Origin: Myxococcales bacterium
GTDB taxonomy: Bacteria; Myxococcota_A; Polyangia; Fen-1088
Assembly: GCA_003153015.1 (NCBI GenBank)
Contig: PMBS01000183.1
Location: 1 to 36,098, forward strand
Direction: 5' to 3'
DNA length: 36,098 bases
Each line of letters starts with the position of its first letter. The first letter of the stretch is position 1. The notes under the pieces were generated by a model. That model was not told where the DNA came from. It was given only the letters and a program-made list of their open reading frames with translations, and ran no database searches. This document shows positions 28,121 through 34,863 of the stretch, one piece after another. A program made the translations under genes and the position numbers.

Positions 28121-28825
28121 CTAGAACAGGCGCATCTGGCTGATTCGTGGGGGAGCCAGACACTCGGGATCGTCGTTGCGGACCGAGTTCACACGCAGGG
28201 AGACGGGTGTTGCCACCAACAACTCGTCAGGTGCTGGGCGCAAGAGCTTCTGCGCTGGTTGCTCCAGCCAACTCGCGGCGTCCGAGGCGGACAGCAGCGC
28301 CGGCATGCGGTCGTGAACCGTGGCCAAGAGGCGGTTGGGTGCGGTGGTCAGCACAGCGAAACGGGTGTGTGCCGGTTGTTTCGCGGTGGTCGGCTCTTCG
28401 TCGAAGAGCCCGGCCAGCAGGAGCAGCTTGCCGTCAGACCGGTGGAACCACAGTGGCTGACGCCCTCCCGGGCCGGTCTTCCACTCGAAGAAGCCATCGG
28501 CCGGGACCACGCAGCGCCTGCTCACGAACGCCTCCTGGAAGGCCGGCTTGAACGGCGCGGTCTCGGCGCGCGCGTTGATGGCAGGTGGTTGGCCTCGCCG
28601 GCGCGCCAGCAGTCCCCAGAGGGCGAAGCCCAACCTCGCGTGCCCACCCACGTTGCGCAGAACCGGGTGGGGCTGGGCCGGCGCTACGTTGTAGCGTGGT
28701 CGGTACAGCACTGCCGATCCCTCGTCCGCGCTGATGCGCCCCACGCCCGCATGCGCGAGGGCCTCGGTCAGCTCGTCGAGAAGCTGGTCCCAATCAGGGC
28801 GGGTGAGGGTCATTCGGCCACACAT
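28121..28825 (-). CDS. SOS response-associated peptidase (SRAP/YedK/HMCES family)
   Basis: MCGR N-terminus (Cys2), RYNVAPAQ, WGLLARRRGQPPAINARAET, RRCVVPADGFFEWK, LTTAPNRLLATVHDRMPALL. Confidence 0.95.
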   Translation of the reverse strand: MCGRMTLTRPDWDQLLDELTEALAHAGVGRISADEGSAVLYRPRYNVAPAQPHPVLRNVGGHARLGFALWGLLARRRGQPPAINARAETAPFKPAFQEAFVSRRCVVPADGFFEWKTGPGGRQPLWFHRSDGKLLLLAGLFDEEPTTAKQPAHTRFAVLTTAPNRLLATVHDRMPALLSASDAASWLEQPAQKLLRPAPDELLVATPVSLRVNSVRNDDPECLAPPRISQMRLF

Positions 28826-28839
28826 GCGACTCCTTCACT

Positions 28840-31800
28840 CTAGCGAAAATCGTGCGAGATTTCCGCGCGAATTTCCGGGCTTGGCAAGGGGGAAAAGTGA
28901 TCGGCGCGCAGGGAGACGACGCCCTCATGGCTTTGCACAATTCCCTCGAGAATGAGCCCTTGGGCGCCAACCAGCAAGCGACGATGGTGCTCGAAATCTG
29001 CGGCCGTGACCAAGGCGTTGGCAAAGCCGGTCTCGTCCTCGAGGGTGAAGAAGACCAGGCCCTTCGCGGTGAGGGGGCGCTGGCGAACGATGACCAGACC
29101 AGCGACACGCGCACGGCGACCGTCAGGCACGCATGCCAACTGGTCGGCGGGGACGATCCGCTCGGCCGCAAGTCTCTTCCTGAGGAAGGATAGCGGGTGT
29201 GGGCCGGTGGAAACTCCGGTGAAGTGGAAGTCTGCGGCCACCTCTTCCCCGACACTCATCTCGGGCAGGGGATTTTGCGCCGCCGCTCTCCCTGTCGGCA
29301 CATCATCCACCGCCGATCGGTCGTAGAGTTCCCCTGATCGTCCGAACGCCGCCACTTGCCACATGGCCTGCCGGCGGCTTCCACCTAAACCGGAAAAAGC
29401 ACCGATTTCAGCCAAGGTCGTCCGTTCTGCGGCATTCAGCTCGACCCGGCGGCAAAGCTCCGCCAGCAAGGCGAAGGGCCGTGTGCCGACGATCTGCTCG
29501 GCCGTGCTTCTGCGCAACCCGCGCACGAATTTCAGCCCCAGGCGTACCGCGTACGGCTCTGGCTTGGTTCTTTCCAGCGTGCATGCCCAATCCGAGCAAG
29601 TCACATCCACCGGTAACGTGTCAATGCCATGGCGGGCGGCATCTTTGATGATAGTGGCGGGGTGATAAAAACCCATGGGCTGGTTGTTGAGCAAGGCACA
29701 GGCAAAAGCGGCCGGGAAGTAGGCTTTGAGATAGGCCGAGGCGTAAGCGATGAGCGCGAACGAAGCGGCGTGGGATTCCGGAAACCCATAGAGCGCGAAC
29801 GACTTGATGCCCTGGACGATTTCCGCTTGCGCCTTGCGGGCAATTCCCTTGCGGGACATGCCGGCGTATAGCTCTGCTTCGATTGCCCGCATGCGCTCGA
29901 CCGAGCGCTTGAAACCCATCGCCCGCCGCAGCTCTTCCGCCTGGCCTCCCGAGAACCCAGCCGCAGCCATGGCCATGCGGATGAGCTGCTCCTGGAACAG
30001 CGGCACGCCCAGGGTGCGGCGTAGGATCGGTTCCAGGCAAGGGTGGGCGTAGGTGACGGCTTGCTTGTGATTGCGCCGAGCCAAGTACGGGTTCACCATC
30101 TTGCCGACAATGGGGCCAGGCCGAATGATGGCCACCTCGACCACCAGGTCGTAAAAGCGTTCGGGGCGCATGCGGGGCAGCGTCGCCATCTGCGCACGGG
30201 ATTCCACTTGAAAGACGCCCACTGTGTCGGCGGCGCGAAGCATCTCGAACACACGCGCGTCGTCGGGCGGCAACTTGGCATAGTCGATGGTGACGCCGTG
30301 GTGATTGTGGATGAGCGTGGCCGAATCCTCCAGCACGGCCAGCATCCCCAAGCCGAGCAGATCGACCTTGATGATGCCGAGATCGGCACAGTCGTCCTTA
30401 TCCCACTGTACGACCGCGCGGCCTGGCATGCTGGCCGGTTCGATGGGAACCACCTCGTCCAGCCGCCCTGACGCCAGCACCATGCCGCCTGAATGTTGGC
30501 CGAGATGTCGGGGCAGGTTGAGCAACGAGGTGCCGAGCTTGGCCAATAACCGAGTTCGCTCGTCGGTGTCAGGAAAGCCCGCCTCGGCCAAGAAAGCCGA
30601 CAGCGGTTTGTCGTCGGGAACGACGAATCCGGGCAGAAGCTTGCTCATACGCCCAAGCTGTTCCTCGGAAAAGCCGAGCGCGCGCCCGCAGTCCCGCACC
30701 GCCAGGCGCGGGCGATAGGTGATCACATTGGCGGTCATCGCGGCCCCGGCGGCGCCGTATTTTCGGTAGACATGCTGGATGACCTCCTCACGCTTGGCAC
30801 CGGAGGGCAGGTCGAGATCGATGTCAGGCATGCGGTCCGCAATGCTGCAGGCACTCTTCACCCGCTCTTCGGATAGGAAGCGTTCGAACAGCAGCTCCAT
30901 GCCCACCGGATCGACCGCAGTGATGCCCAGGGCGTAACAGGTGGCGCTGTTGGCGGCTGAGCCGCGCCCTTGCACCATGATGCCGCGGCTGCGGGCGAAC
31001 CCGACGATGTCCCAGACCACCAAGAAATAGCCTGCCAGATCCAGCTTGCCGATGACGTGAAGCTCGTGCGCAAGCTGGGCCCGCGCTTTGTCGGTCATGG
31101 GCTGATAGCGGGCGGCGGCGCCCTGCCAGGTCATCGCCTCGAGAAAGCTCTGCTGGGTTTCACCGTCGGGAACCGGGTAACTGGGAAAGCTGTAACCGAG
31201 ATCGGAGAGCGTGAATAGGCAGCGCTCGGCGATCTCGTGGCTGCACGCAACCGCGGCGGGCAGGTCGGCAAACCGGGCGGCCATTTCTGCCGGTCGCTTG
31301 AGAAAGCGTTCGGCGTTGCGGGGTAGTCGACGTCCGATCTCGTCGACCGTGACCCCGGCACGAATGCAGGTGAGCACGTCATGGGTGGGGCTTCGATCCA
31401 TGGTGGCGTAGCGCACGTCATTGCTGGCGACCACCGGGAGAGCGCAGGCGGCGGCCTGGGCGAGGACAGCGCGGTTTTGCCGCTCCTCCTCGGCGTCGAG
31501 GTGTCGCTGCACTTCAAGGAAGGCGCGGCCGCGTCCAAACAACGCCGCCAGATCCGCGGCATCGGCGCGCGGGGCAGGGCCGAGCAGCGCAATCAAGCCT
31601 GCGGCGTGCTCCGCCAGCATGTCGATGGTCGCGGCCCCTTCGCCCTTGCATCGTCCCTGCTTCATGCGGGTGATGAGCCGGCACAGGTTGCGGTAGCCGC
31701 GTCGGTCTTCCACCAAGAGCAGCACGGGCGGCGGTGTGTTCGATGGACTTGCGGCCAATGCGATCTCCGCTCCCACGATGGGGCGCAGCCCGGCCTGGCG

Positions 31801-32058
31801 CGCGGCCGCGAAAAACCGTGGCGCACTATAGAGCCCGCCAAAGTCAGCGAGCGCTAGGGTTTCATGGCCACCAGCCACCGCCGCGGCCACCAGGTCCTCG
31901 GGCAGCGATGCACCGTCGAGAAAGCTGAAGGCCGAGCGACAGCGAAGCTCGACATATAAATGGGAACCCTGGGAGGGTTCCCAAACCCTCCCGCGATGGT
32001 GCGCCGCCGGCAAAGCCGGCGGGCTCCCCACGCGACTATGTTTAGTCGTAGTAGCCAT
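28840..32058 (-). CDS. dnaE2: error-prone DNA polymerase III alpha DnaE2 (ImuC)
   Basis: PHP N-terminus YVELRCRSAFSFLDGAS; VQGRGSAANSATCYALGITAVDP; MPDIDLDLPSGAKREEVIQHVYRKYG; FPESHAASFALIAYASAYLKAYFPAAF. ATG 32058 (MATTTKHS) overlaps the imuB stop by 17 nt. Confidence 0.95.
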   Translation of the reverse strand: MATTTKHSRVGSPPALPAAHHRGRVWEPSQGSHLYVELRCRSAFSFLDGASLPEDLVAAAVAGGHETLALADFGGLYSAPRFFAAARQAGLRPIVGAEIALAASPSNTPPPVLLLVEDRRGYRNLCRLITRMKQGRCKGEGAATIDMLAEHAAGLIALLGPAPRADAADLAALFGRGRAFLEVQRHLDAEEERQNRAVLAQAAACALPVVASNDVRYATMDRSPTHDVLTCIRAGVTVDEIGRRLPRNAERFLKRPAEMAARFADLPAAVACSHEIAERCLFTLSDLGYSFPSYPVPDGETQQSFLEAMTWQGAAARYQPMTDKARAQLAHELHVIGKLDLAGYFLVVWDIVGFARSRGIMVQGRGSAANSATCYALGITAVDPVGMELLFERFLSEERVKSACSIADRMPDIDLDLPSGAKREEVIQHVYRKYGAAGAAMTANVITYRPRLAVRDCGRALGFSEEQLGRMSKLLPGFVVPDDKPLSAFLAEAGFPDTDERTRLLAKLGTSLLNLPRHLGQHSGGMVLASGRLDEVVPIEPASMPGRAVVQWDKDDCADLGIIKVDLLGLGMLAVLEDSATLIHNHHGVTIDYAKLPPDDARVFEMLRAADTVGVFQVESRAQMATLPRMRPERFYDLVVEVAIIRPGPIVGKMVNPYLARRNHKQAVTYAHPCLEPILRRTLGVPLFQEQLIRMAMAAAGFSGGQAEELRRAMGFKRSVERMRAIEAELYAGMSRKGIARKAQAEIVQGIKSFALYGFPESHAASFALIAYASAYLKAYFPAAFACALLNNQPMGFYHPATIIKDAARHGIDTLPVDVTCSDWACTLERTKPEPYAVRLGLKFVRGLRRSTAEQIVGTRPFALLAELCRRVELNAAERTTLAEIGAFSGLGGSRRQAMWQVAAFGRSGELYDRSAVDDVPTGRAAAQNPLPEMSVGEEVAADFHFTGVSTGPHPLSFLRKRLAAERIVPADQLACVPDGRRARVAGLVIVRQRPLTAKGLVFFTLEDETGFANALVTAADFEHHRRLLVGAQGLILEGIVQSHEGVVSLRADHFSPLPSPEIRAEISHDFR

Positions 32059-33547
32059 CGAGATACCACCGGCTGGTCTCGCGATCCTGATGGACGCGGT
32101 AGAGCGCGCCGTCGGAAGCGTGAACATCCCAATACTCGCGACAGAATCCGCCACCCGCCCACCATTCGCCGTTTATGCGGTAGGGTCCTGCGGCGACGAG
32201 AATGCGCGCCGTGGTTTCCTTTCCGCGTAGCGCCGCTGGTCCGCTTGGTCCGATCAACACTTCTATGTCGCGCGGTGGACGAAACCTGCGGATGCCCAGC
32301 GTGGCTTGGGCCTGGTGCCCGGTGCTGCTATTTGCCAGCGGTTCTCCTTGATTTGCAGGCCTTGGGGCGGGCTCGACCATTGCGGGATCGAGCGCCATCA
32401 CCTCTTCCTTCCAATTATCGACCATGCGGGGCGCGCCCACGTGCTCAGGACCAACCAAGGCCGACAGTCGGGCGATGGTTGCGGCCAACCTTTCCGGTGC
32501 CGGACCGGCCGGGCGAAACAGGTCGAGTTGGGTGGAACGGACACGGGCCGGGCGGATGAGGACCGTCATGCCCACCACGCCGGTGTCCGGGGGTCGTCGT
32601 TCGAGATCCAGACGGACAAGTTGCAGCAGGATGCTCGCCTCGCGCGTGGGGCTGGGCAAAGCGATCTCACGCAAGTCAAAGCCACGCGGAGCGAGCTTTA
32701 GTCGCAGGATCAACCCGGCGCAAGCCAGACTTCGGCAAGCCAGCCGCTGCAGCGCCCGGTCGAGTAATCCGCGCAACAGGAAGGAAAGCGGCTCCCACGA
32801 CTCGATCGGGTAATCCACCTCGGTACCTTCCTCGATGGCATCCGCGGGCGGCTGTGGCAGGAAGGGCTCAGCATCGATGCCATTCGCGAGTCGATGAAAG
32901 TGTGCCGCCCCCAGGCGCAGGGTGACCTCTGGTCCTGGCAGGCTGGCTAGCTCACCCACGGTCTTGATGCCCCAATGCTGCAGGACTTGCCGGGTTTCTT
33001 CATCCAGGTCGAGTACAGTGAGGGGCAATCCCGCCAACCTGGCTTTCGCCGCTCCTGCCGTTTCAGGAAGAATGACGATCTCGCCGGCCCGCGTACCCAC
33101 GCGTGCCAAACCCTTGGACGAAGCAATGGCGACCCGCACCGCCAATCCGAGCTGGGTCGCTCGGGCTTGGATGGCTTGGCTCATGGCCTGCTCGTTTGGG
33201 TAAAGCGATCCGAGATCACCCACCTGGAAAAAGACCCGCCCCGACTCCGCCTCAATGCGGGGAGCGAAACTCAACCCGAGATCTTGCAATGCCGCCTGGG
33301 CGGCATCCCCATCGGCCGGGCGCGCCCGCATCACCCGCAGCGAAGGCACCATGGCGCGCGCCTGGGTCACGGTCATGCCCAGACATGCTCCGGCCAAGCG
33401 CGCGCTTCGAGTCAACCCGAGCAGGAGCGCGCGTTCCCCCGGCCCGGCTGCAAGCGCGATGGGTGCCTCGCGTTCGTGTGGCTCGGTGAGGCCGCGCAGC
33501 ACGGACTGCAAAGCGATCTGCGGAGCATGAGCACAGGCGATGCGCAC
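32042..33547 (-). CDS. imuB: ImuB, inactive-type Y-family DNA polymerase
   Basis: Y-family-like fold (VMRARPADGDAAQAALQDLGLSFAPRIEAESGRVFFQVGDLGSLYPNEQAM, LQHWGIKTVGELASLPGPEV), C-terminal RINGEWWAGGGFCREYWDVHASDGALYRVHQD; between imuA and dnaE2. Confidence 0.93.
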   Translation of the reverse strand: MRIACAHAPQIALQSVLRGLTEPHEREAPIALAAGPGERALLLGLTRSARLAGACLGMTVTQARAMVPSLRVMRARPADGDAAQAALQDLGLSFAPRIEAESGRVFFQVGDLGSLYPNEQAMSQAIQARATQLGLAVRVAIASSKGLARVGTRAGEIVILPETAGAAKARLAGLPLTVLDLDEETRQVLQHWGIKTVGELASLPGPEVTLRLGAAHFHRLANGIDAEPFLPQPPADAIEEGTEVDYPIESWEPLSFLLRGLLDRALQRLACRSLACAGLILRLKLAPRGFDLREIALPSPTREASILLQLVRLDLERRPPDTGVVGMTVLIRPARVRSTQLDLFRPAGPAPERLAATIARLSALVGPEHVGAPRMVDNWKEEVMALDPAMVEPAPRPANQGEPLANSSTGHQAQATLGIRRFRPPRDIEVLIGPSGPAALRGKETTARILVAAGPYRINGEWWAGGGFCREYWDVHASDGALYRVHQDRETSRWYLDGYYD

Positions 33548-33581
33548 AGGTGACCACCGCCTTCATGTCCCCTCGGCCCTA

Positions 33582-33741
33582 GTGCCACCGGTCAGAATTT
33601 CGGGCATGTTCTGGCTGCCGATCCATCCCGTCCGGCTGCGGTTGCTCCTCGGTCACATAGGTCGACTATGCTCCCTCGTCGCGCCTTGCCGGCCGGGCGC
33701 CTCGTCACCCAGAACATGCCCGCTCTTCTGACCGGAGGCAC
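33582..33741. repeat. 160-bp inverted-repeat element overlapping the imuA 3' end
   Basis: Arms gtgccaccggtcagaatttcgggcatgttctgg (33582-33614) and ccagaacatgcccgctcttctgaccggaggcac (33709-33741) match at 29/33 in inverted orientation. Confidence 0.85.
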
Positions 33742-34468
33742 CTGCGCGCTCGCGCGCTTGGAAAACCAATGAACAGTGTGCGGCTTGCTCGGCGGTTCGA
33801 CGTCCACGCTCCAGTGAAACCGAGCTCGCCAAGGCCGTGACCAGCGGGGGATGCGCGACGACTCGTGCCGAGGCGTGGTCGTCTACGCCAAACCGCGGGC
33901 GAAATCGTGCGCAGGCCTGCCGTCCGAAATCGACGTTCTTCTGCTGCAGATGCACCGATGTGGCTGAACACGATCCTGCGAGCGGAAAACCAGCAGCGAG
34001 CAAGACCACGGTTCCCTGTCGCTGCGCGACCTGGCGCAAGCGTATCCACGCCGTCGTGGGCAGGTGTGGCACCGAGTCGCCCAGATCCAACGCCACCAGC
34101 TCGAATCCCCCTGCGGAGACCAGCAGCTCAGTTGATTTGAGCGTCTGGCCCTGGCCTGCGCACACCCACAGCAGTTGTCGCAACGGGATGCCGGCCTGTT
34201 CCGCTCGCCGTGCATCGAGGGCCGATTCCGCATCCACCAATGCCGCCGCCGCCCCCTTTTGCAGCACTGCTCCCAGCGAGGCATAAAGCACCGAGGTGCG
34301 CCCCGACGATCGCGGCCCGTAGACTTCGCTCAACCCACCCCGCGGCCAACCGCCGCCAAGCATTTCGTTTAGCGCTGGCCAAGGGGTAGGCAGATGCCCG
34401 CGTTTCGCTTCCAGCCGTCGTGCTGGAATCAGGAACGAAGAAAGTTGCTCAAGCGCCGGGACGGACAC
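33653..34468 (-). CDS. imuA: ImuA, RecA/SulA-like mutasome accessory protein
   Basis: LPTPWPALNEMLGGGWPRGGLSEVYGPRSSGRTSVLYASLG; first gene of the imuA-imuB-dnaE2 cluster. GTG 34468 preferred from promoter placement; alternative GTG 34516. Confidence 0.85.
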   Translation of the reverse strand: MSVPALEQLSSFLIPARRLEAKRGHLPTPWPALNEMLGGGWPRGGLSEVYGPRSSGRTSVLYASLGAVLQKGAAAALVDAESALDARRAEQAGIPLRQLLWVCAGQGQTLKSTELLVSAGGFELVALDLGDSVPHLPTTAWIRLRQVAQRQGTVVLLAAGFPLAGSCSATSVHLQQKNVDFGRQACARFRPRFGVDDHASARVVAHPPLVTALASSVSLERGRRTAEQAAHCSLVFQARERAGASGQKSGHVLGDEAPGRQGATREHSRPM

Positions 34469-34475
34469 ACGCTCA

Positions 34476-34503
34476 AGCGTAGCTGAACGTTTGTTCAGGT
34501 CAA
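34476..34503 (-). promoter_or_regulatory. putative imuA promoter with LexA-like operator in the spacer
   Basis: Minus strand: TTGACC-TGAACAAACGTTCAGC(16 nt)-TACGCT-TGAGCGT-GTG. Palindrome CTGAAC-N4-GTTCAG at 34483-34498. Confidence 0.7.
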
Positions 34504-34863
34504 GATCAAAATCCACATTCGCAGGGAAGCCTCACTGCCGCAACGGGTGAGGTGATTCATCTCGTCAGCCGCCCGCTGCGGCTGCCTTCCAGGAACGACA
34601 GTCACATCTCGATCGCCTGCGCGCCGGCGAGATTAACCCAGCGATGCGGGCGGACCAGGCGCTGGCCCCGACGTACCGCAGGCAAACGCCATAGAGTTCG
34701 CCTTTACCAGCCGGCCGACAAGCCGGAGCGTATGGCGCAGCCGCGCCGAGAACCGCACCGGAGCATACTTGGGTATGTGAGGAGCGGAAGCGCAGGCGCG
34801 GCAAGCCAGACGCCCGGATCGTCGGCCGGCGGTGCTTCGAAGAGATACGGTCACTCCAAGAAC

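Follow-up and report, generated by a model that had tools for sequence, protein, structure and literature searches.

A perfect palindrome of the type CTGAACN4GTTCAG lies between the −35 and −10 hexamers of a predicted promoter that precedes an imuA-imuB-dnaE2 operon in the window, by which we mean the whole 36,098-nt stretch of DNA that was analysed. From the sequence itself, its conservation in relatives, the presence of LexA in the same genome and related boxes at other genes, all of which were directly observed, we infer LexA binding, repression, induction by damage and the position of the transcript 5′ end. It is very probable that LexA represses the imuA operon from this spacer operator until DNA damage derepresses it, and that imuA has a leaderless start at GTG 34468, the ORF-track start at GTG 34516 being wrong.

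A predicted LexA operator in the promoter of a mutasome operon

The genes for ImuA, ImuB and DnaE2 follow one another in that order on one strand and thus form an imuA-imuB-dnaE2 mutasome cassette (Table 1), with ImuA scoring 52 bits against the NCBIfam equivalog, below its cut-off of 150. The dnaE2 start at 32154 is probably too far upstream, since the profile match begins within the frame and the 5′ part of the frame overlaps imuB; translation probably begins a good way further downstream. The SRAP/YedK gene is probably the fourth and last gene of the imuA operon. A palindromic repeat element occupies the 3′ end of imuA (window 33570-33741, arms 33582-33621 and 33702-33741); it is missing from a 91%-identical relative (L017) and recurs as roughly 15 complete or partial copies in the rest of the genome. 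The element alters the ImuA C-terminus and shifts imuB about 165 bp further off.

Table 1. Genes and promoter elements of the imuA locus (window coordinates).
Feature	Position	Strand	Evidence
imuA, RecA-like mutasome gene, 271 aa from GTG 34468	33653..34468	-	Pfam RecA; partial NCBIfam ImuA_translesion match
imuB, Y-family-polymerase-like	32042..33547	-	Pfam IMS; alignments
dnaE2, error-prone polymerase	28840..32154 (ORF track)	-	NCBIfam NF004225, 1209 bits, match from residue 66
SRAP/YedK-family gene	28121..28825	-	Pfam SRAP; 14 nt after dnaE2
-35 hexamer TTGACC	34498..34503	-	sequence; TTG 5-6 nt before box in 13/13 family imuA promoters
Predicted LexA operator CTGAACAAACGTTCAG (CTGAAC-AAAC-GTTCAG)	34483..34498	-	palindrome, position, family conservation
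-10 hexamer TACGCT	34476..34481	-	first T 11/13, A 13/13, last T 10/13 in family
Probable true imuA start codon GTG	34466..34468	-	7 nt after -10; in-frame family starts
ORF-track imuA start GTG, probably unused	34514..34516	-	not in two closest relatives L017, L018

When the minus strand was re-read, the succession of TTGACC, TACGCT, 7 nt and GTG 34468 proved to be as the first-pass annotation had described it. The operator has perfect 6+6 arms around a 4-nt centre and reads CTGAACGTTTGTTCAGG on the plus strand; a single C separates it from the −10 hexamer, and the 7 nt TGAGCGT separate the latter from GTG 34468, which has a common reading frame with GTG 34516. The palindrome had also been said to fill the whole −35/−10 spacer, and this holds for 15 of its 16 bases, which lie inside the 16-nt spacer (34497-34482), whereas its first C belongs also to the −35 hexamer. 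The predicted operator at imuA is thus situated between recognisable hexamers, its first base doubling as the final one of the −35.

Conservation of the predicted operator at imuA

The source genome is a Myxococcota MAG (incomplete, 87%), and the exact CTGAACN4GTTCAG motif occurs once in the window and once in the entire 5.84-Mb assembly. Sites with at most one mismatch were not in excess in this single genome (9, versus 12 for the reversed control), so the significance of the box rests on its position and conservation and not on single-genome counts. None of 400 dinucleotide shuffles of the 246-nt region surrounding the imuA start yielded a perfect match. The half-site pattern ACRTNYGTTCAG was not above control in this genome and was not used as a statistic; five of its six matches are at imuA, lexA, cinA-recA2 and two DUF222-HNH genes. 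The sixth (L189, C20:5446) was rejected as a chance match, since it lies within a long coding frame.

We located imuA in relatives and compared the upstream sequences, which gave 13 family imuA promoters; one genus contributed six of these and another three, which makes the 13 loci less than fully independent. The box was present in all 13 (nine perfect, three matching at 11/12 positions and one at 10/12), with no variation in CTGAAC, in the G that follows the centre or in the closing AG. Every member has the TTG of the −35, which ends in or just before the box, and in the −10 the A is invariant and the outer T's are mostly retained. Shuffled upstream regions equalled the observed match in 0-1.25% of cases per locus. 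The palindrome does lie inside the longest ORF, as would a chance palindrome within the imuA coding region drawn by the ORF track, but its spacing to the −35, the −10 and the start is fixed in 13/13 members, it is present in other families, and the exact motif was found 29 times in 18 family genomes versus once for a reversed-pattern control. We give such a coincidence practically no credence and regard it as already refuted in practice.

Predicted start of imuA and a probable leaderless transcript

All 13 family members have an ATG or GTG in frame at a distance of 13-16 nt beyond the box, versus 0.52 expected. In ten of them an in-frame stop is found at or downstream of the −35, so that translation cannot start upstream of the promoter there; the frame is open across the promoter in the remaining three, namely the window and the two relatives nearest to it, L017 and L018. 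GTG 34516 is missing from these two relatives, indicating that the imuA start should move to 34468. With a counterpart in all members, stops in most and no conservation of GTG 34516, the earlier proposal that 34468 is the likely true start is well supported.

A different arrangement, in which the LexA operator and its promoter are real but a second, upstream promoter gives a leadered imuA mRNA with its start at 34516 or 34468, is unlikely. It would be compatible with the open frame, which in the window reaches back beyond 34516 and in the two nearest relatives spans the promoter, but it is opposed by the absence of GTG 34516 from those same relatives, by the stops in 10/13 members, and by the DNA similarity between the window and L017, which is unbroken only from a point shortly upstream of the −35. 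Under the preferred reading, that of a start at 34468 served by the operator-bearing promoter, the 7 nt between the −10 and GTG 34468 would place the transcription start at or beside the start codon. Transcription would then begin no more than one or two bases from GTG 34468 and produce a leaderless or near-leaderless imuA mRNA. The start codon lies a few nt from the predicted +1, which leaves no space for a Shine-Dalgarno sequence. These distances, together with family starts 13-16 nt after the box, agree with the earlier prediction of little or no 5′ UTR, and imuA is probably translated from a leaderless or near-leaderless mRNA.

LexA and related boxes in the same genome

A canonical LexA is encoded in the same genome (C262:11414-12019; TIGR00498, 230 bits versus a cut-off of 111), and it aligns along its length with solved LexA structures. 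The lexA promoter reads TTGACA-CGGGACATATGTTCCG-TACCAT and is accompanied by a second box, CCATACGTTTGTTCAG. Both lexA boxes are degenerate (9/12 positions each) and the perfect CTGAACN4GTTCAG was not found at lexA, but all six family lexA promoters compared, from three genera, keep the layout. On the opposite strand CCATACGTTTGTTCAG becomes CTGAACAAACGT, the same 12 bases as in the imuA box. No box was found at recA1. The cinA-recA2 promoter consists of TTGACG-17 nt-TAAGGT-9 nt-ATG, with CTGAACGAATGTCTAT across the start codon (9/12 positions; L188 / L194; G000:C14, about 1899-1910); this box is kept in genera g1, g5 and g7 and was not seen in other genera. The cinA-recA2 promoter looks leaderless, and its weaker LexA-like half-site is no more than suggestive. 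Of the genes upstream of which a search for CTGAACN4GTTCAG had been proposed, imuA therefore has it exactly, lexA has it in degenerate form, cinA-recA2 has a candidate degenerate copy and recA1 has none. The absence of the motif from lexA and recA, which had been named as evidence against a LexA box, is not what we found, since lexA carries related boxes and cinA-recA2 a candidate one, though all of these are degenerate.

The SOS box of Myxococcus xanthus is CTRHAMRYBYGTTCAGS (Campoy et al. 2003, as given in PMC9705874), and the plus strand of the imuA site fits it at 17/17 positions. M. xanthus LexA gel-shifts the copies of this box at lexA and recA2 (PMC9705874). These data bear on the idea that another dimeric repressor, not LexA, binds the palindrome. 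The degenerate state of the lexA copies would be in its favour, but the 12-base half common to the imuA and lexA promoters, the occurrence of several sites at SOS genes and the fit to a box that M. xanthus LexA gel-shifts make it very unlikely. We thus retain LexA as the predicted regulator: the box is family-wide at imuA, divergent at lexA and matches the M. xanthus consensus, all of which favours the earlier suggestion that this lineage uses a LexA box of the CTGAACN4GTTCAG type.

Boxes in other families and at other genes

Boxes matching at 10-12 of 12 positions were found near the imuA start in families f3, f4, f10, f13, f20, f22, f23 and f24 of the same class. In f4, f20 and f23 the start codon follows 12-14 nt after the box. 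In f3, as in a few others, the imuA start codon lies under the box or borders on it. At two f3 loci (L033, L034), two boxes flank the imuA −10 and the second contains the ATG. The imuA pattern recurs, to some degree, in seven families outside that of the window, and the predicted leaderless arrangement is retained in several families of the class. Five imuA loci from two families (L150-L154) had no box. The acidobacterial and verrucomicrobial imuA loci had no such box either, and we therefore confine our claim of a footprint to Myxococcota.

Within the family, the exact-box sites examined lie before imuA, dnaE2, DUF222-HNH genes and a radical-SAM gene, as well as in several further places. Two DUF222-HNH genes, one apparently truncated, have CTGAACGTATGTTTAG 9 nt before the ATG (L007:1114-1129, L009:1501-1516), and perfect boxes occupy the corresponding position in relatives L080 and L082. 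In relatives L083 and L089, dnaE2 has its own box immediately before a close start codon. The box at the radical-SAM gene (L075, L084; two genera) comes directly after TTGA.

A wider generalisation, that the LexA regulon of the class is largely leaderless (imuA operon, separate dnaE2, cinA-recA2, DUF222-HNH), with the operator either within the spacer or overlapping the start codon, is offered tentatively and falls somewhat short of being probable. If it were true for one class of Myxococcota, damage-induced mutagenesis there would depend on leaderless translation.

Discussion

In the mechanism that we propose, a LexA dimer on the 34483-34498 palindrome would block RNA polymerase at the imuA-imuB-dnaE2-SRAP promoter. 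The position of the operator in the spacer would make binding of LexA and RNA polymerase mutually exclusive, as at Escherichia coli recA. Upon DNA damage, a RecA filament would lead to LexA self-cleavage and the operon would be derepressed. The recA mRNA of E. coli has a leader, unlike the mRNA predicted for imuA in the window. The E. coli recA promoter-operator is TTGATA-CTGTATGAGCATACAG-TATAAT (PMC8601168). Like imuA it has a 16-bp LexA operator in the −35/−10 spacer, but the operator sequence (CTGTN8ACAG) and the gene are different. The LexA (DinR) box of Gram-positive bacteria, CGAACN4GTTCG, has in common with the window box a GAAC-N4-GTTC core, whereas the outer bases differ (CT...AG in the window) and the phylum is another one.

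SOS control of imuA-imuB-dnaE2 cassettes is established, with examples in Caulobacter, Pseudomonas and Mycobacterium (PMC8072749). Those operons contain the same genes under operators whose type varies by phylum, and the window locus adds to them a predicted leaderless start and, probably, SRAP as a fourth gene. M. xanthus belongs to the same phylum as the window, and the lexA sites of both stand directly behind a TTGAC −35; compared with the M. xanthus SOS box, the window site is a perfect symmetric palindrome and is located at the imuA operon. The direct LexA targets reported in M. xanthus are lexA, recA2 and the weakly bound pafBC, many damage-induced genes being LexA-independent and few promoters directly bound (PMC9705874), and ImuB is lower, not higher, in a lexA mutant (PMC12288472); these observations speak against the control proposed here. 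Set beside the direct control of imuA predicted here, the small number of direct targets in M. xanthus (PMC9705874) suggests that the set of genes under LexA varies from one myxobacterial lineage to another.

None of the three components, namely the type of operator, the mutasome operon and the position in the spacer, is new in itself, and the motif was already known from the phylum. What is new is that the imuA operon is a predicted target in this family, that its start has been corrected and that the putatively leaderless arrangement, the less familiar part, is conserved; a literature search that covered few subscription papers returned no published account of them. With these findings the SOS box known from myxobacteria is carried over to an error-prone polymerase operon in a family without cultured members, and they provide a testable case in which genes for damage-induced mutagenesis would be made from leaderless mRNA.
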